Position numbers and translations under genes: made by a program | The notes under the pieces: generated by a model | Told to the model about the DNA's origin: nothing | What the model saw: the letters and a program-made list of their open reading frames with translations, nothing else | Database searches by the model: none | Origin: a bacterium | Lineage (GTDB): Bacteria; Zhuqueibacterota; Zhuqueibacteria; Zhuqueibacterales; Geothermadaptataceae | Assembly (NCBI GenBank): GCA_024275575.1 | Contig: JAJRYV010000049.1 | Coordinates: 1 to 37,103, forward strand | Reading direction: 5' to 3' | DNA: 37,103 nucleotides | Part shown: one piece after another, positions 11,637 through 26,483 of the stretch | How positions within the stretch are numbered: position 1 is the first letter of the stretch | How the letters are laid out: every line of letters begins with the position of its first letter

Positions 11637-12377
11637 ATGAAAGCCGATCTGCCCAGACCCCAAACATTCCAACCTGATATCTACGATAAAGTGCTCAAAC
11701 AGATATCCAGGGAACAACCGTCTCACATACTCGATGTTGGAGCTGGACAAGGATATTTCTCTCTCCGTCTCAAGCAAAAGGGGTATCAGATTGAAGCCTG
11801 TGATTACGATGCGGAGAATTTCAAATGCCCGGATATTCCGTTTAAGACGGCGGATTTAAATACATGTCTTCCATTTAGTGACAACCTGTTTGACTGCACC
11901 GTCAGCATTGAGGTTGTCGAACATATTGAGAATCACTTCAGATTTATTAGCGAAATGATTCGGGTTACAAAACCTGACGGACTTATTATTGTCACAACTC
12001 CGAATATTCTTAGCTTGCCGTCTCGCTGGCATTTCTTCTTATATGGTTATACCGATTGTGCACCGATTCCTTTGAACCCTGACCGGAAGGACTACTTTAT
12101 GCAACATATCAACCCTGTCAGTTTGCCTGAGCTGCTCTTTCATTTCGAACGTTTTGGAGCCGATCTTGTCACGCTGACAACCAACCGGTTACGACGCAGC
12201 GCCTTTATCCCGATGTTGCTGTATCCATTTTTAAACATAGCCATACGCCGCAAGTTGTTGCGTTCAAAGTACACTGAAGTATTTGATCTTCATCGTCGAC
12301 ACATACGTTGGCTTACAACCCTGGCAAACATGATGGGACGAATCACGATTGCTGTGGCCCGCAAACGAAGGGTATGA
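11637..12377 (+). CDS. class I SAM-dependent methyltransferase
   Basis: This 246-residue protein has a compact methyltransferase core. Motif I is ILDVGAGQGYFSLRL, the acidic ribose-binding residue is in EACDYDAENF, and the motif IV region reads FDCTVSIEVVEHIENHFRF. The following strand, GLIIVTTPNILSLPSRWHFF, is typical of the Methyltransf_11/23 group. It starts 16 bases after the previous methyltransferase gene but is not a close duplicate: it lacks the N-terminal cysteine unit and its motifs differ. A probable substrate is a glycan or polyprenyl-linked sugar because of the neighbours. There is no signal peptide, so it should act in the cytoplasm. Confidence 0.85.
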   Translation: MKADLPRPQTFQPDIYDKVLKQISREQPSHILDVGAGQGYFSLRLKQKGYQIEACDYDAENFKCPDIPFKTADLNTCLPFSDNLFDCTVSIEVVEHIENHFRFISEMIRVTKPDGLIIVTTPNILSLPSRWHFFLYGYTDCAPIPLNPDRKDYFMQHINPVSLPELLFHFERFGADLVTLTTNRLRRSAFIPMLLYPFLNIAIRRKLLRSKYTEVFDLHRRHIRWLTTLANMMGRITIAVARKRRV

Positions 12378-14106: not shown

Positions 14107-15045
14107 ATGAAAAAAATCGCATTCATCGGCACTTTTATTCGAGATAAAATCATTCCTCTGCAGGGGGAAATCACGCAAAGCATCGGCGGATTATATCACG
14201 GCTTGGCGGCTGCAGCTTTCTCGGCAAAAGATGACTTCCTCATTTATCCGGTCGCCAATATCGGTAAAGATTTTGCATCTGTTTTATTACCGGTTTTGCA
14301 AAAACTGCCCCGGCTCGATCTGCAATATGTCGAAATGGTCGAGCAGTGCAATACCGCCGTGACCTTAAAATATATCAGTGAATCCGAAAGACAGGAAACA
14401 TCGACGCGATTTATGCCTGCCATCAGTATCGAAAAACTGGCCGGCATCATCGGTTTTTCCGCAGTTCATATCAATATGATCTCCGGCGCCGATATTGAGC
14501 TTGAGGCCCTCGCCGATTTTCGCAAGCAATTTAAAAACATCATCTGCCTTGATTTTCACACATTAGCCCAGGGAATCGATGCTTGCGGAAAAAGATTTCC
14601 GCAGCGCCCGGAAAAGTGGCAAAACTGGATACGCTGTGCTGATATCGTGCAAATGAACGAAAACGAAGCAGCGATACTTTCAAGCTCGCCAATAGAAAAA
14701 GAGCCGCAAAAACTCAGTGAGTTTTTGGAGACTATCTTACAACTGGGACCACAGGCTGCGGTGATAACGCTCGGCGCCAAAGGTGCAATCGTCGGTAAGA
14801 GAATGAGATTTGATCAAATGGAAATCAGACATATTCAACCGCCCATGACCGAGCACAGCATTGTTGACATCATCGGCTGCGGCGATACATTTGGCGCTGT
14901 TTTTCTGTTAAACTATTTGCGAATAAACGACCTGTGGGCTGCGGTACGGAAAGCGCTGCAAATTGCTTCATTAAACGCGACATTTATGGGATCGATAACA
15001 AAATCAATATTTGAGGAAAGAATTCTACCTTATGCAGAAAGTTAA
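14107..15045 (+). CDS. PfkB (ribokinase) family kinase
   Basis: The 312-residue protein has the ribokinase-like fold. A glycine-rich sugar-binding opening (SIGGLYHGLAAAAF) sits near residue 28. The C-terminal PfkB signature reads DIIGCGDTFGAVF, with the catalytic base expected at Asp260 in the GCGD anion-hole motif (usually GAGD). The NENEAAIL segment and VITLGAKGAIV are also typical. It should transfer phosphate from ATP to a sugar or nucleoside; the substrate is not readable from the sequence. There is no clear ribosome site before ATG 14107. The next gene, an RmlD-like reductase, overlaps its end by 14 bases, so the two are coupled and may act on related sugars. Confidence 0.85.
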   Translation: MKKIAFIGTFIRDKIIPLQGEITQSIGGLYHGLAAAAFSAKDDFLIYPVANIGKDFASVLLPVLQKLPRLDLQYVEMVEQCNTAVTLKYISESERQETSTRFMPAISIEKLAGIIGFSAVHINMISGADIELEALADFRKQFKNIICLDFHTLAQGIDACGKRFPQRPEKWQNWIRCADIVQMNENEAAILSSSPIEKEPQKLSEFLETILQLGPQAAVITLGAKGAIVGKRMRFDQMEIRHIQPPMTEHSIVDIIGCGDTFGAVFLLNYLRINDLWAAVRKALQIASLNATFMGSITKSIFEERILPYAES

Positions 15046-20358: not shown

Positions 20359-20877
20359 ATGGCTTCTGTTTCATTAAAACGCAAAGTTTTGATTTTAAAT
20401 CAAAGTTACGAGCCGCTCAGGGTGGTCACCGCTCAAAAAGCGATCGTCCTGGTTTATCTTGGCAAGGCTGAAATCATTGAAAAACATCCAACGTTAATGA
20501 TTCATTCGATCATGGTGAGTTTTCCATTTCCAAGTATTATCCGCTTGTGCAATTATGTCTATATTCCGCGAAAACGGGTTATCCTTTCACGTAAAAATAT
20601 TTTACGCCGTGATGGTTTTCGCTGCCAGTATTGCGGCGAGAAATCACAACCGTTGACTGTCGATCACGTCATCCCTAAAAAAATGGGCGGCCCGGATTCA
20701 TGGGAAAATCTCGTTTGTGCCTGTTTTAAATGCAATAACAAAAAAGGCGATCGTACACCGGAAATGGCGGGCATGCCTTTGAAGTTCAAACCTAAAAAAC
20801 CGATATATTTGTTTTTTATTCAACAGGAGATTAAATATGCCGACTACAACTGGAAGCCTTATCTGTTTATGAGCTGA
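20359..20877 (+). CDS. HNH endonuclease family protein
   Basis: The 172-residue protein belongs to a widespread stand-alone HNH group. The N-terminal half is the conserved VLILNQSYEPLRVV... AIVLVYLGKAEIIE unit, and the second half is the HNH domain. Zinc-type cysteines are Cys89 and Cys92 (CQYC) and Cys122 and Cys125 (CFKC). The DH pair at Asp102-His103 and the NKK segment complete the ββα-metal site. Its cellular role is not established. It is usually found alone in genomes and not with a restriction methylase; none is present here. There is no strong ribosome site before ATG 20359. It lies 27 bases before trpS. Confidence 0.87.
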   Translation: MASVSLKRKVLILNQSYEPLRVVTAQKAIVLVYLGKAEIIEKHPTLMIHSIMVSFPFPSIIRLCNYVYIPRKRVILSRKNILRRDGFRCQYCGEKSQPLTVDHVIPKKMGGPDSWENLVCACFKCNNKKGDRTPEMAGMPLKFKPKKPIYLFFIQQEIKYADYNWKPYLFMS

Positions 20878-21913: not shown

Positions 21914-22636
21914 ATGAACTATCGCGTAAAACTCGAAAATTTCGACGGACCGCTCGATTTGCTTCTTTTTTTGATCAAAAAAAACGAGGTGGACTTGTTC
22001 AATATTCCGGTTGCGGTCATCACCCGGCAGTTTCTTGAATATGTCGAACTTATCAAGCTGCTTGATCTGGAATATGCGAGTGATTATATTCTTCTGGCGG
22101 CGACCTTGATTCGCATCAAAGCCAGGATGCTTCTGCCGAAAAGCCCTGTTGATGATGATGAAGAAATCGAAGAAGACCCGCGAGATGAATTGGTCAGGCA
22201 GTTGCTGGAATATCAGCGTTTTAAAGAGATTACCAGCGATATGTCCCGGCTTGAAAACCAGCGCCGGCTCGTTTATAGCCGAAGATACTTCGATTTTAAT
22301 ATCGATGATGAAGAGATTCTCTGGGAGCCCAACGGTGATTACACACTTTTTGAGTTGATGAGTGTGTTTAAAGAAGTTCTGAAAAGAAAACCGCGCATTA
22401 CCCATCATCATATCGAGCAGCACTCGGTAACGGCTGAGGAACAGATGGAGTTCCTGCTCGATTTACTTGCACAAAAAGGCGGTGAACTCCTTTTTTATGA
22501 ACTTGCTGAACAATTGACCTCCCGCATCGTGGTGATCATTACTTTTATCGCCATGCTTGAGCTCATTCGAAATGGAAAAATTTTAATCACACAATCGTCG
22601 ACGTTCGGTGAAATATGGATAAAGATCAAAAAATAG
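21914..22636 (+). CDS. scpA: segregation and condensation protein A (kleisin)
   Basis: ScpA is the kleisin that bridges the SMC heads in the bacterial condensin complex and recruits ScpB. The 240-residue protein opens with the conserved FDGPLDLLLFLIKKNEVDLF, then IPVAVITRQFLEYV, and has AATLIRIKARMLLP near residue 70. An acidic linker and a C-terminal winged-helix region (LLDLLAQKGGELLFYELAEQ) follow. The gene overlaps scpB by 22 bases, so their translation is coupled. Confidence 0.95.
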   Translation: MNYRVKLENFDGPLDLLLFLIKKNEVDLFNIPVAVITRQFLEYVELIKLLDLEYASDYILLAATLIRIKARMLLPKSPVDDDEEIEEDPRDELVRQLLEYQRFKEITSDMSRLENQRRLVYSRRYFDFNIDDEEILWEPNGDYTLFELMSVFKEVLKRKPRITHHHIEQHSVTAEEQMEFLLDLLAQKGGELLFYELAEQLTSRIVVIITFIAMLELIRNGKILITQSSTFGEIWIKIKK

Positions 22637-23292
22637 GATTTCAGCATTTTAAAAAAACACTCGAAGCGTTGATTTTTGCTGCAGATACGCCGGTAAGTGA
22701 AAAGAATCTCGAGACTTATATCGGTGATGAAATAAACAGTTTTTCGATTGAGGAAACGGTTGCAGTTTTGAACGACGAATACAGTGATAGTGGCCGGTCG
22801 TTTCGCATTGTCACGGTTGCAGAAGGTTATCAGATAATCACGCGTCCGGAATTTGCCGGATATATCAAAAAAATGTACATGGGGCGCGTGCGCAACAAAT
22901 TATCCCAGGCGGCGCTGGAAGTGCTCGCGGTGATATCCTTCAAACAGCCGATAAGCAAGGCCGATATCTCGGCCGTACGCGGCGCCAACAGCGATAGCGT
23001 GGTTAAGAATCTGCTCGAACGCCGGTTGATCACAATTTCAGGCCGCGGCGAAGGCATTGGCCGGCCGTTGCTTTATTCGACCACATCTGAATTTCTTGAA
23101 TATTTCGGCATCAACAGCATCAATGAATTGCCGAAACCCCGGGAAATTGAGGAGTTATTCAAAGAAGGAAAATATTCGGATCAGATCGTCGATGCCCTCG
23201 CAGGTTTGGATGAATCTCTTGATTCCGATGATTCTGATAAAAGAAATGAACATACCGGAGATGAATTTAACAGCCAAAATCAGACTGAATAA
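22615..23292 (+). CDS. scpB: segregation and condensation protein B
   Basis: ScpB forms dimers of tandem winged helices that bind the ScpA linker. The 225-residue protein shows LEALIFAADTPVSEKNL, the conserved LSQAALEVLAVISFKQPISKADI split around residue 100, and RGANSDSVVKNLLERRLI. GRPLLYSTTSEFLEYFGI is near 155. A charged tail of about 40 residues follows, rich in Asp and Ser. It overlaps scpA upstream and the pseudouridine synthase gene downstream. Confidence 0.95.
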   Translation: MDKDQKIGFQHFKKTLEALIFAADTPVSEKNLETYIGDEINSFSIEETVAVLNDEYSDSGRSFRIVTVAEGYQIITRPEFAGYIKKMYMGRVRNKLSQAALEVLAVISFKQPISKADISAVRGANSDSVVKNLLERRLITISGRGEGIGRPLLYSTTSEFLEYFGINSINELPKPREIEELFKEGKYSDQIVDALAGLDESLDSDDSDKRNEHTGDEFNSQNQTE

Positions 23293-24007
23293 GTTTCTCG
23301 CGCAAGCCGAACTTGGCTCGCGCCGGTCTGTGGAAAAGTTGATATTATCCGGCCTGGTGAAAATCAACGGTAAAGTCGTTTCCTCACCAGGCATTACGAT
23401 CAACCCGCAAAAAGATATTGTCATCTACGACGGCAATATTATCCAGCACGAAATTGAGCCCACTTATATTATTCTCAACAAACCTGTCGATTATATTTGC
23501 TCCCGTCACGATGAAAAAAAACGCAAAACGGTTTATCAACTGGTGCGTACACCGCAAAAAGTCTTTTCCATCGGCCGGCTCGATAAGGATTCTGAGGGGT
23601 TGCTGCTTTTTACCAATGATGGTGAGTTCGCTAACCGGTTGATCCATCCGAAATACAAAGTGCTGAAAAAATACAATGTCATTCTAAAAAAATCAGCTCC
23701 GCCGGGGTTACAGGAAATATTTCGCAGGGGAGTGATCATCGATAAAAATGAACGGGCAATAGCTCATGTCGTTTTCCCCAACCGCAAAAACAAAAAAGCC
23801 TGTGTGGTCAGCATCACTGAAGGCCGTAATCGACAAATCCGCAAAATGTTCGCGGCTGTGGGTGTTCGTGTGAAATATCTGCAACGCTTTCAAATAGATT
23901 CACTTAAACTTGGCTCGCTCGCCCCCGGGGCGTGGCGTTATTTAACAAACAGAGAATTGAAAACTCTTAAAAAAGCTGTGGAGTTGGGCAATGGAAATAA
24001 CAAATAA
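23246..24007 (+). CDS. rluB: 23S rRNA pseudouridine synthase of the RluB/RsuA family
   Basis: The likely start is ATG 23246, giving 253 residues. ATG 23261 is also in frame, but GGAG directly abuts it, too close to serve. The N-terminus is an S4 RNA-binding domain (IRLNKFLAQAELGSRRSVEK). The catalytic domain carries GRLDKDSEGLLLFTNDGE with nucleophile Asp113, then HPKYKVLKKYNV and EGRNRQIRKMF near the end. It isomerises uridine in 23S rRNA; RsuA or RluF specificity cannot be excluded, but the scpB-rluB neighbourhood favours RluB. It overlaps scpB by 47 bases and the next gene by 17. Confidence 0.9.
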   Translation: MNIPEMNLTAKIRLNKFLAQAELGSRRSVEKLILSGLVKINGKVVSSPGITINPQKDIVIYDGNIIQHEIEPTYIILNKPVDYICSRHDEKKRKTVYQLVRTPQKVFSIGRLDKDSEGLLLFTNDGEFANRLIHPKYKVLKKYNVILKKSAPPGLQEIFRRGVIIDKNERAIAHVVFPNRKNKKACVVSITEGRNRQIRKMFAAVGVRVKYLQRFQIDSLKLGSLAPGAWRYLTNRELKTLKKAVELGNGNNK

Positions 24008-25700
24008 GCGCATTCTCGTTCTTGGAGGAGCAGGTCTTGTTGGCATGGCCATTTGTCGAAGATTACTGAATGAATCACCGGATGAAATAATCATCGCCAG
24101 TCTGGAAGAAGTTGAGGCGCACGAAGCCTGTGAAGCGCTGAAAAAGGAGCATAAAGGCAAAACGACCATTACGCCGGAATGGGGAAACATCTTTGTTCGT
24201 GACAGCCTGCAAAACATGTCGCGCAGTGAACTCATCGAAAACCCGGTCAACCGAGAAATCGTGATCAACGACGTGCTGGGTGAGATGGCAGAAAATGTTT
24301 TAAAAGCAAGTTACCTGTATCAGATAGTCATGCGCTACCGCCCACACGTGGTGATCGATTGTATCAATTCAGCGACGGCGCTGGCTTATCAGGATGTTTT
24401 CAACAGTTACCGGGAAGTGGCGAAAGAGCTCGATAAGGTCAAATCAGGGGTGGCTGAAACGACCCATCTTGTCGCAGAAGTCGAAAAGCTGCTATGCACC
24501 TTGTACGTGCCGCAACTCATCCGCCACGTCCAAATTTTATATGAGGGCATGCGCCGTGTCAAAGCAGAGTTTTATTTCAAAATCGGCACCAGCGGTACCG
24601 GTGGCATGGGTTTGAATATTCCATACACCCATTCGGAGGAAAAACCAAGCCGTGTTCTGTTGAGCAAATCATCTGTCGCCGGTGCTCATAGCTTATTGCT
24701 TTTTCTCATGGCGCGAACACCTGATGCACCGATTACCAAAGAGATCAAACCGACGGCCGCAATCGCCTGGAAACGCATCGTTCACGGTGAAATTCACAAA
24801 GGGCGCAAACCGGTTCAGTTATATGAATGTCTTATTGAAAATGCGACAAAACTGGATTCAATTCTAAAATTAAATGATGATAGCTGCGCCCGGCCAATTA
24901 AAAACAAGGTTTTGGAGTCCGTATTCATCGATACCGGCGAGAACGGCATTTTTTCAAATGCAGAATTTGAAGCGATCACTTCATCAGGACAAATGGAATT
25001 TATCACACCGGAAGAAATAGCCCGCAGCGTGGTTTATGAGCTCAAGGGTGGCAACACCGGGCACGATATCATCAATGCGCTGGATAATGCAACAATGGGT
25101 CCGACTTATCGTGCCGGATTGCTGCGTCAGAGAGCGCTGAAACGCATGCAGGATTTGATGAAAAAACATGATTGCGCCAGCATCGCTTTTGAGCTTCTCG
25201 GGCCGCCCCGCTTGAGCAAATTGCTGTTTGAAGGTCATCTTCTAAAGCTGGCTTTCAAAACGATGGCCGGTGTGCGCAACGCAACAGCAGCGCAAATGAG
25301 TGAAAATCTTGAGAAAGTCGTGCTCGATAACGCAAAACTGCGCTCGGAGATTATTTCCATCGGCATTCCCATTTTACTGGTAAACGGCAAGGAATTATTG
25401 CGGGGACCAAACATCAAAATCCCACCATATCGCGGCGAAAGCGAATTACAAATTACGCCGGGAAATATCAATAAGTGGTCATCCGAAGGCTGGATTGATT
25501 TGCGTACGGAGAATATGCAATTATGGAAAAATCGTTTCGACAGAATTTTTGAAGAATTGAGTCAGCACCGGGATGATAACAGCAGTTCACAATACGACCG
25601 GGACCTCTCATATTGGCTGGAAGATAATACGATCAATACCGGCAAAGTCGCCGGCTGGATTCTCGCCAATGAGGAAAAGGGCGCGCGCATGAAAGATTAA
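23991..25700 (+). CDS. uncharacterised Rossmann-fold (SDR/epimerase-like) protein, 569 aa
   Basis: The N-terminus is a clear dinucleotide-binding start: RILVLGGAGLVGMAICRRLL, with glycines at 12, 15 and 18 in the GxxGxxG spacing. RYRPHVVIDCINSATAL follows where SDR proteins have their fourth strand. I do not see the YxxxK catalytic pair of ordinary SDR enzymes. A glycine-rich loop GTSGTGGMGLNIPYTHSEE near residue 198 looks like a second binding site. The remaining 350 residues match nothing I recognise. There is no signal peptide or membrane segment. The gene overlaps the pseudouridine synthase by 17 bases, so it belongs to the scpAB operon, and cmk follows after 84 bases. Possible roles are a nucleotide-sugar or amino-acid dehydrogenase; I cannot name the reaction. 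Confidence 0.65.
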   Translation: MEITNKRILVLGGAGLVGMAICRRLLNESPDEIIIASLEEVEAHEACEALKKEHKGKTTITPEWGNIFVRDSLQNMSRSELIENPVNREIVINDVLGEMAENVLKASYLYQIVMRYRPHVVIDCINSATALAYQDVFNSYREVAKELDKVKSGVAETTHLVAEVEKLLCTLYVPQLIRHVQILYEGMRRVKAEFYFKIGTSGTGGMGLNIPYTHSEEKPSRVLLSKSSVAGAHSLLLFLMARTPDAPITKEIKPTAAIAWKRIVHGEIHKGRKPVQLYECLIENATKLDSILKLNDDSCARPIKNKVLESVFIDTGENGIFSNAEFEAITSSGQMEFITPEEIARSVVYELKGGNTGHDIINALDNATMGPTYRAGLLRQRALKRMQDLMKKHDCASIAFELLGPPRLSKLLFEGHLLKLAFKTMAGVRNATAAQMSENLEKVVLDNAKLRSEIISIGIPILLVNGKELLRGPNIKIPPYRGESELQITPGNINKWSSEGWIDLRTENMQLWKNRFDRIFEELSQHRDDNSSSQYDRDLSYWLEDNTINTGKVAGWILANEEKGARMKD

Positions 25701-25784: not shown

Positions 25785-26483
25785 ATGAAAAATCAGCATC
25801 CGAATTCGGTCAATAGACGAGAGATTATTGCAATCGATGGGCCTGCGGGCTCCGGGAAGAGCACAACCGCACGGGCAGTTGCCGCAAAACTCAACTTCAC
25901 TTTTTTGGATACCGGCGCTCTTTACCGGGCTGTGACTTATTTGGCGCTTGCGCAAGAAATTGATTTATATGAAGAAAACGCCCTCGATCGCCTTATTGGC
26001 GGGACTGAATTTGAATTGAGTACCTCCGGCGATGAAACTTGTGTCTGGGCAAATGGCGAAGAAATCTCGCAAAAAATTCGCACAATCGAAGTGACGAACA
26101 ATGTGAGCGTGGTTTCAAAATACACTAAAGTGCGAAATGCGATGGTCGGTTTGCAGCGGAAAATTGCCAGTGATGGTAAATTCGTTGTCGAAGGCCGGGA
26201 TATCGGCACAGTAGTTTTTCCGGACGCCCGGTTGAAGATTTTTCTCATCGCCTCGCTGGAAACTCGCACCAACCGGCGCAAACTCGAGCTGCAAAAAAAT
26301 GGTGTTGAAATTCCATTCGCAAAGCTTTATCAGGAGATCGCAATACGCGATAAGATAGATTCAGAAAGAGCTGTCGCGCCATTAAAAAAGGCGGATGACG
26401 CTATCGAACTCGATACGACCAAGATGACGATTGATGAACAGGTTGATAAAATAGTCACTTTGTATCGACAGATTACGGCCTGA
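25785..26483 (+). CDS. cmk: cytidylate kinase
   Basis: Cmk phosphorylates CMP and dCMP with ATP. From ATG 25785 the protein has 232 residues, the usual size; a TTG at 25734 would add a hydrophobic 17-residue extension not seen in the family. The P-loop IDGPAGSGKSTTARAVA is at residues 17-33, then FLDTGALYRAVTYLAL. Further on are VVEGRDIGTVVFPDA and the R-rich LID segment TRTNRRKLEL-like, and ERAVAPLKKADDAIELDT near the end. No ribosome site precedes the ATG, but a promoter-like site does. It stands 83 bases before rpsA, an order shared with many bacteria. Confidence 0.95.
   Translation: MKNQHPNSVNRREIIAIDGPAGSGKSTTARAVAAKLNFTFLDTGALYRAVTYLALAQEIDLYEENALDRLIGGTEFELSTSGDETCVWANGEEISQKIRTIEVTNNVSVVSKYTKVRNAMVGLQRKIASDGKFVVEGRDIGTVVFPDARLKIFLIASLETRTNRRKLELQKNGVEIPFAKLYQEIAIRDKIDSERAVAPLKKADDAIELDTTKMTIDEQVDKIVTLYRQITA

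Follow-up and report, generated by a model that had tools for sequence, protein, structure and literature searches.

The stretch of DNA analysed here (the window, 37,103 nt) carries between rluB and cmk an open reading frame of 569 codons, and raises the question of what its product does and whether its place behind scpAB and rluB says anything about its function. The gene, which we call FAM, runs on the forward strand from an ATG at 23991 to 25700. Upstream of it are scpA and scpB (21914..23292, +; recurring clusters c2 and c4) and the pseudouridine synthase gene rluB (ORF 23057..24007, +), whose end it overlaps by exactly the 17 nt described in the first-pass annotation (23991..24007, +); cmk (25785..26483, +) begins 84 nt past its end. 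The true start of rluB is probably later than that of the ORF, since rluB matches in other genomes begin mostly at about residue 70. A scan of GTDB genomes found 102 loci encoding FAM relatives, and most of the best 80, which were retained, match across residues 1–568/569 with identities of 38–80%. Because the relatives share the start residue and span the full length, both the gene, already proposed at first reading, and its start are real. The opposite strand, in the same register as FAM, contains many stops and no open frame, and a promoter/terminator scan gave site numbers about equal to those of shuffled sequence. Conservation was scored on an alignment (A1) of 78 rows, i.e., the window protein and 77 of the 80 loci; L015 and L057, which are cut by a contig end, and L060, whose frame is broken, were omitted. 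A second alignment (A2) holds 71 of these 78 rows.

The protein had been described as uncharacterised, and at the family level profile searches agree. No Pfam or NCBIfam family spans FAM, and the NAD-binding families match its first ~75 residues only. Polysacc_synt_2 (PF02719) scores 24.1 bits on residues 8–77, above its gathering score of 20.2, in a partial match covering positions 1–73 of the 293 of the profile, while Epimerase (PF01370) reaches 18.8 bits, below its gathering score of 20.9; at E ≤ 0.01, 30 of the 78 members match Epimerase and 17 of the 78 match Polysacc_synt_2. No cut-off is reached among the NCBIfam matches listed (the best 25 of 30), the one with the best E-value having 25.1 bits vs. 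a cut-off of 250. All PDB sequences matching at E < 0.1 fall inside residues 1 to ~165, mostly in the first 75. FAM matched neither plasmids nor any of the defence families searched, and a literature search, judged from titles and abstract openings, found no paper on the family.

Structure prediction and fold comparison bear out that FAM is a Rossmann-type protein, as first supposed, and specify an SDR fold. The AlphaFold2 model computed from the 78-row alignment (mean pLDDT 84.3, pTM 0.70) has SDRs as its top Foldseek matches (best 6bwc, E 6e-7), and VIA-align superposes it on the SDR 6nkh with Z 17.1 and an rmsd of 3.5 over 235 residues, in the model range 1–373. All 1000 listed chains of 1000 give Z ≥ 8 against the predicted model; the 50 best listed are all SDRs, by their title or by general knowledge, and their Z values are spread over at most 1.3. 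The 2-enoyl-CoA reductase 1yxm (Z 16.6) is level with the other SDRs. These matches are nearly tied in score, and the fold comparison cannot separate SDR subgroups.

According to the model, residues 1–257 and 335–373 form one SDR domain split by a 77-residue insert, with boundaries read from strands, motifs and aligned ranges. The first part of the domain (residues 1–257; 23991..24761, +) is defined by the model and the fold comparison. The insert (residues 258–334; 24762..24992, +), whose limits were deduced from motifs and the aligned folds, is beta-rich and contains an invariant GENGxF. The end of the domain (residues 335–373; 24993..25109, +), with MEFITPEE ... TGxD, is placed by the aligned range, which extends to residue 373, and presumably resembles the C-terminus of FabG. 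A helical C-terminal domain of 196 residues follows (residues 374–569; 25110..25697, +), for which no clear PDB match was found. Modelled alone from 71 rows (pLDDT 79.2), it yields no Foldseek match at E ≤ 0.001 and a best VIA Z of 2.9, which is chance level; its profile has a best E of 0.34 against PDB sequences, and phmmer with residues 300–569 returns nothing from the PDB sequences at E ≤ 1. An unmatched domain does not prove a new fold. The roughly 350 residues initially assigned to no family are accordingly divided: residues 78–257 and 335–373 belong to the SDR domain, and 258–334 and 374–569 do stay unmatched. Overall, FAM represents a conserved, unnamed family built on the known SDR fold, and not a new kind of system.

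Conservation is concentrated in the cofactor loop and around the predicted active site. In the dinucleotide-binding loop GGxGLVG (residues 12–18; 24024..24044, +), G12, G15 and G18 are each present in 78/78 rows, so that the GxxGxxG motif is as clean as first noted. The stretch D-C-I-N-T/S-A-T (residues 123–129; 24357..24377, +), with D123 in 78/78 and N126 in 77/78 rows, follows model strand 120–123 and would be equivalent to the SDR NNAG motif. The second glycine-rich loop, noticed earlier near residue 198, is part of KxGTSGTGGMGxNxPYTHSExKPS (residues 197–220; 24579..24650, +), which includes T200, Y212 and H214. It begins K197-x-G-T-S/T-G-T-G-G-M-G, residues 199, 200, 202 and 204–206 being identical in 78/78 rows, and its almost invariant part GTSGTGGMGxNxPYTHSE sits between the active-site residues T200 and K226. 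T200 (78/78) occupies the position that follows strand 5 (model strand 194–198) and in SDRs holds the catalytic Ser/Thr; residue 201 is S in 50 rows, T in 27 and C in 1 of the 78, and Y212 is found in 77/78. The SDR lysine, K226 (24666..24668, +), is likewise kept in 78/78 rows, whereas the residue four positions before it, 222, is variable (V24 T19 M13 K12 P5 L2 A2 R1) and never Tyr (0/78); indeed, no YxxxK occurs anywhere in residues 186–260 of the 78 rows. The YxxxK pair reported as missing is therefore half missing: the tyrosine is absent, but the lysine is there. Read from the alignment, the putative active site of FAM keeps the SDR lysine and Ser/Thr and has lost the tyrosine. Also invariant (78/78) are H179, K197, N209, P211, T213, H214, E216, P219, S220 and P254, as well as GENG 316–319, QMEFITPEE 334–342, K410, W501 and D503. 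The loop 204–218 is among the most conserved parts of the protein, yet among the least confident in the model, and may be one that closes on a ligand. At the end of strand 2, the 78 rows have neither an acidic residue nor a conserved basic pair, so NAD and NADP are not told apart.

Compared with classical SDRs (6nkh MalC, 1yxm 2-enoyl-CoA reductase, FabG), FAM has the same core fold in residues 1–257 and 335–373 and shares GxxGxxG, the Thr/Ser after strand 5, the Lys and the Pro after strand 6; on the other hand, the catalytic Tyr is missing, the loop leading to the lysine helix is longer, and the 77-residue insert and 196-residue C-terminal domain are additional. The extended SDRs of the Polysacc_synt_2/Epimerase type (e.g., PglF and Pen) supply its best weak sequence and Foldseek matches and have the cofactor loop in common with it, but only residues 8–77 match and the remaining profile does not. 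The SDR enoyl/dienoyl-CoA reductases (PECR 1yxm, DECR 1w6u/7ucw, pDCR 4fc6) combine an SDR fold with a CoA chemistry that suits the FAM neighbourhood. DECR keeps the lysine without a tyrosine four residues before it, and in this FAM is alike; however, the fold of FAM is no closer to these reductases than to other SDRs, its Tyr212 lies elsewhere in the loop, and there is no sequence match past the cofactor loop. The spacing of the displaced tyrosine in DECR is about that between Y212 and K226, a similarity dropped as evidence because the loop lengths differ. The paper on SimC7 (PMC5039031) describes an SDR ketoreductase that is active although it does not have the Ser-Tyr-Lys triad, which indicates that SDRs lacking the full triad can work; SimC7 retains the Ser but neither Tyr nor Lys, whereas in FAM Thr and Lys are retained and Tyr is lost.

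Full-length relatives of FAM occur in Calditrichota, Neomarinimicrobiota, Gemmatimonadota, Bdellovibrionota, Chloroflexota, Ignavibacteriota and Myxococcota, a distribution that contradicts the suggestion of a lineage-specific protein. Counting matches at E ≤ 1e-30, FAM is present in 34/82 genomes of Calditrichota, the phylum of the window, 41/120 of Neomarinimicrobiota, 27/150 of Gemmatimonadota, 6/201 of Chloroflexota and 4/144 of Bdellovibrionota, with one copy per genome, except for one match divided between two contigs in the Neomarinimicrobiota survey. This patchy occurrence makes FAM accessory, and with 34 of 82 genomes in its own phylum it is not the core enzyme that had been proposed. 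Absence of the gene from this place in close relatives, named in the first-pass annotation as counting against its view, is found within the phylum and not in the nearest family, f1, where FAM is present in 7/7 genomes. In a quick tree of 115 proteins, with SH-aLRT support only and long branches, the family divides into two groups of 84 and 31, and the scp-context label changes 6 times vs. 37.4 times in shuffles; L201 and L204, duplicates of L026 and L062, were omitted from this tree and from the neighbour control described below. Within Calditrichota, FAM does not track VorB (22/34 genomes with FAM, 26/48 without) or butyrate kinase, since 7 of the 10 genomes without a butyrate-kinase match carry FAM (G003–G006, G031, G037 and G561). 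In this phylum, therefore, FAM does not need these partners.

The data do not support the tie to scp function suggested by the overlap: in other genomes, FAM is found away from scp, next to genes of 2-oxoacid and acyl-CoA metabolism. The scp context accounts for 52/120 FAM loci, and about seven separate arrangements place FAM in operons for 2-oxoacid oxidation, acyl-CoA-to-acid conversion or beta-oxidation. Neighbouring ORFs were called mechanically, the Gemmatimonadota loci being GC-rich and some of their neighbours read in a wrong frame, and L070 was dropped from the set by the overlap filter. Among 20 Neomarinimicrobiota regions, 9 retain scp (L187–L195), 9 have the order VorB-KorB-gamma-Buk-Ptb-FAM (L177–L182, L184–L186) and one, L183, has Buk-Ptb-FAM, which is also the order in L022; of these names, VorB (555 vs. 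399) and butyrate kinase are above their cut-offs, and KorB, gamma and Ptb below. In the remaining one of the 20 regions, L148, a PorA/VorA-like gene and the beta subunit of a different kind of 3-methyl-2-oxobutanoate dehydrogenase (420.1 bits vs. a cut-off of 405) directly precede FAM. In Bdellovibrionota, three loci with subfamily-1 FAM (L026, L036, L202) have the order FAM-IorA-IorB-(acetate-CoA-ligase-like), and L203, with a subfamily-2 FAM, has the identical order; IorB is above a cut-off here, IorA and the ligase below theirs. IorA-IorB are divergent from FAM in L021. Finally, L205 presents the run thiolase-FadJ-FAM-EtfB-EtfA, in L068 a fused 2-oxoacid dehydrogenase E1 precedes FAM by about 230 nt, and in L065 a crotonase follows FAM after 151 nt; in these three loci the thiolase is above one subfamily cut-off and the other names are below theirs.

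The clustering was checked with phmmer, using 14 neighbour families as queries. Within two places of FAM, 39/432 genes matched, compared with 22/375 at three to four places and 9/405 farther away; the near matches come from 20 of the 117 loci examined, and all 31 outer matches (of 780 genes) lie in the same gene run as a near match, none elsewhere. As the query families were picked after they had been seen near FAM, these figures show clustering and not an unbiased rate. Other contexts are different. In Calditrichota, the subfamily-2 gene follows ispG and has near it Kbl (glycine C-acetyltransferase, above cut-off), FTCD or a PfkB kinase; in Chloroflexota, FAM is flanked by DUF711 and an LLM-class oxidoreductase or else precedes an unnamed gene and cluster c31, which we take to be pyruvate kinase; FtsZ and NuoM are further neighbours. 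These Calditrichota and Chloroflexota contexts indicate no single pathway and weigh against a narrow interpretation.

Some details of these regions may be recorded. The DUF711 (PF05167) gene is just upstream of FAM in six Chloroflexota loci (L066, L073, L076–L079), in several of which a TIGR03617-type LLM-class oxidoreductase follows. PfkB kinases (cluster c32) adjoin subfamily-2 FAM in L213 and L214, and the window itself has a PfkB/ribokinase-like gene at 14107–15045, which matches TIGR02152 weakly, at a score far under the cut-off. In L181, butyrate kinase and the gamma gene of the 2-oxoacid oxidoreductase flank a frame of ~89 codons from stop to stop (11659–11928, −), rubrerythrin/ferritin-like by eye. 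The short butyrate kinases (262–283 residues) of several Neomarinimicrobiota loci are probably an effect of calling ORFs with ATG/GTG starts only; in L181 the stop-to-stop frame has 352 codons. An apparent 862-residue fusion in L210 was rejected as an out-of-frame reading of ispG.

The explanation we prefer, with a probability of about 0.45, is that FAM is a divergent SDR-fold enzyme that uses NAD(P) in the catabolism of branched-chain 2-oxoacids and acyl-CoAs. The likeliest reaction is the oxidation or reduction of a short acyl-CoA, often a branched one (enoyl-/hydroxyacyl-CoA type), since a single metabolite, acyl-CoA, is common to the neighbours of FAM, namely Vor, Ior, 2-oxoacid dehydrogenase E1, Ptb/Buk, the ADP-forming acyl-CoA ligase, thiolase/FadJ/Etf and crotonase: it would be the product of Vor, Ior and E1, be consumed or formed by Ptb/Buk and the ligase, and be an intermediate of FadA/FadJ/Etf and crotonase. 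In such an enzyme, GGxGLVG of the SDR-type Rossmann domain would bind NAD(P); the active site would be a rebuilt one, with K226 and T200 kept and the tyrosine lost; proton donation and substrate binding may fall to the long invariant loop that carries Tyr212 and His214; and the insert and helical C-terminal domain would complete the enzyme. The analysis shows the predicted core fold, the conserved residues and the gene neighbours; we infer NAD(P) as cofactor and a part in breaking down 2-oxoacids (the branched-chain ones above all) and the acyl-CoAs formed from them, and FAM probably performs an unassigned step in the breakdown of amino-acid-derived acids and fatty acids. Against this stand the facts that most FAM loci are outside these catabolic contexts, that in Calditrichota FAM does not track VorB or butyrate kinase, and that the gaps in L068 and L065 are about 150–230 nt. 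A bolder form, which we consider less likely than not, would make FAM a new enzyme family with an unassigned step of branched-chain 2-oxoacid/acyl-CoA catabolism, spread over at least seven phyla, in whose rebuilt SDR active site the Tyr212/His214 loop and the unmatched helical domain carry out chemistry foreign to ordinary SDRs. A strictly conserved, unnamed enzyme family in mostly uncultured phyla is a gap in models of amino-acid and fatty-acid breakdown; its recurring gene partners offer a way to test the substrate class experimentally, and its active site would make an informative SDR variant.

The main rival places FAM one step earlier, as the enzyme that makes the 2-oxoacid, i.e., a dehydrogenase that uses NAD(P), acts on amino acids (branched-chain or aromatic) or 2-hydroxy acids and feeds Vor, Ior or E1, a part played by leucine dehydrogenase in the Bacillus bkd operon. 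Several kinds of 2-oxoacid oxidoreductase adjoin FAM, and L207, L213 and L035 have aminotransferase, Kbl and threonine synthase neighbours, which speaks for this proposal; it leaves unexplained, however, the thiolase-FadJ-FAM-Etf run of L205 and the crotonase of L065, and we consider it rather unlikely. We are equally sceptical of FAM as an SDR-fold lyase, dehydratase or isomerase with bound NAD(P), or a sensor, whose loop binds a phosphorylated or CoA substrate. The loss of the tyrosine and the very strict loop would fit such a protein, and the best weak profile matches are to families of sugar-nucleotide 4,6-dehydratases (Polysacc_synt_2; 3pvz), enzymes that use NAD internally; but these matches stop after the first ~75 residues and take in just the cofactor loop that every SDR has, and the invariance of K226 and T200 favours catalysis over sensing.

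The rluB-cmk site was surveyed in 31 Calditrichota genomes, comprising 26 of the 48 without FAM and 5 of the 34 with it, these 5 all carrying it elsewhere, and the cmk locus was recovered from 29 of the 31. In 26 of these 29 loci cmk is no more than 181 nt from the end of the rluB match and directly follows rluB, so FAM is a presence/absence gene between the two and does interrupt a shared gene order, as claimed. In the other three (L231, L232, L242), rluB and cmk are 450–910 nt apart, with no FAM match between them. The rluB-FAM junction recurs in Gemmatimonadota, where FAM is followed by cluster c6 (presumably MoxR-like) or c14 (HEAT repeats), and in Neomarinimicrobiota. Among 35 loci carrying both genes, the overlap is 10–17 nt in 21 and the gap is ≤30 nt in 34; the exact 17-nt overlap is seen in Calditrichota (L001, L002, L007) and L004, and again in Neomarinimicrobiota (L025) and Gemmatimonadota (L039, L040, L063). 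This common place in three phyla means that the junction either predates the phyla or moved between them. In the window, FAM is merely carried in the scpAB-rluB gene run through a short overlap, and a role in segregation is not implied. That FAM is a housekeeping partner of scp, rluB and cmk, in RNA modification, segregation or nucleotide supply, is very improbable: the junction shared by three phyla, often with the identical 17-nt overlap, speaks for it, but common descent or linked-gene transfer can account for this, 26/29 related loci keep rluB-cmk without FAM, and many genomes carry FAM away from scp.

A few minor observations concern the same loci. L004 (JAGHBR010000128.1) belongs to a MAG labelled Caldisericaceae, a label that is probably wrong, its FAM and gene order grouping with Calditrichota. 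A gene that we take from its sequence to be HNH-endonuclease-like (window 20359–20877; cluster c23) precedes trpS-scpAB, as it does in several relatives, and in L018 (250–687; Ignavibacteria) an HNH-like gene stands directly before FAM, as might follow from loss of the genes in between. Finally, in five Neomarinimicrobiota loci (L187, L189, L190, L192, L195), cmk and rpsA constitute one open frame (c5 ORFs of 1024–1104 aa), in which cmk matches the N-terminal ~220 residues and ribosomal protein S1 the later part, with ~140–180 residues between them.
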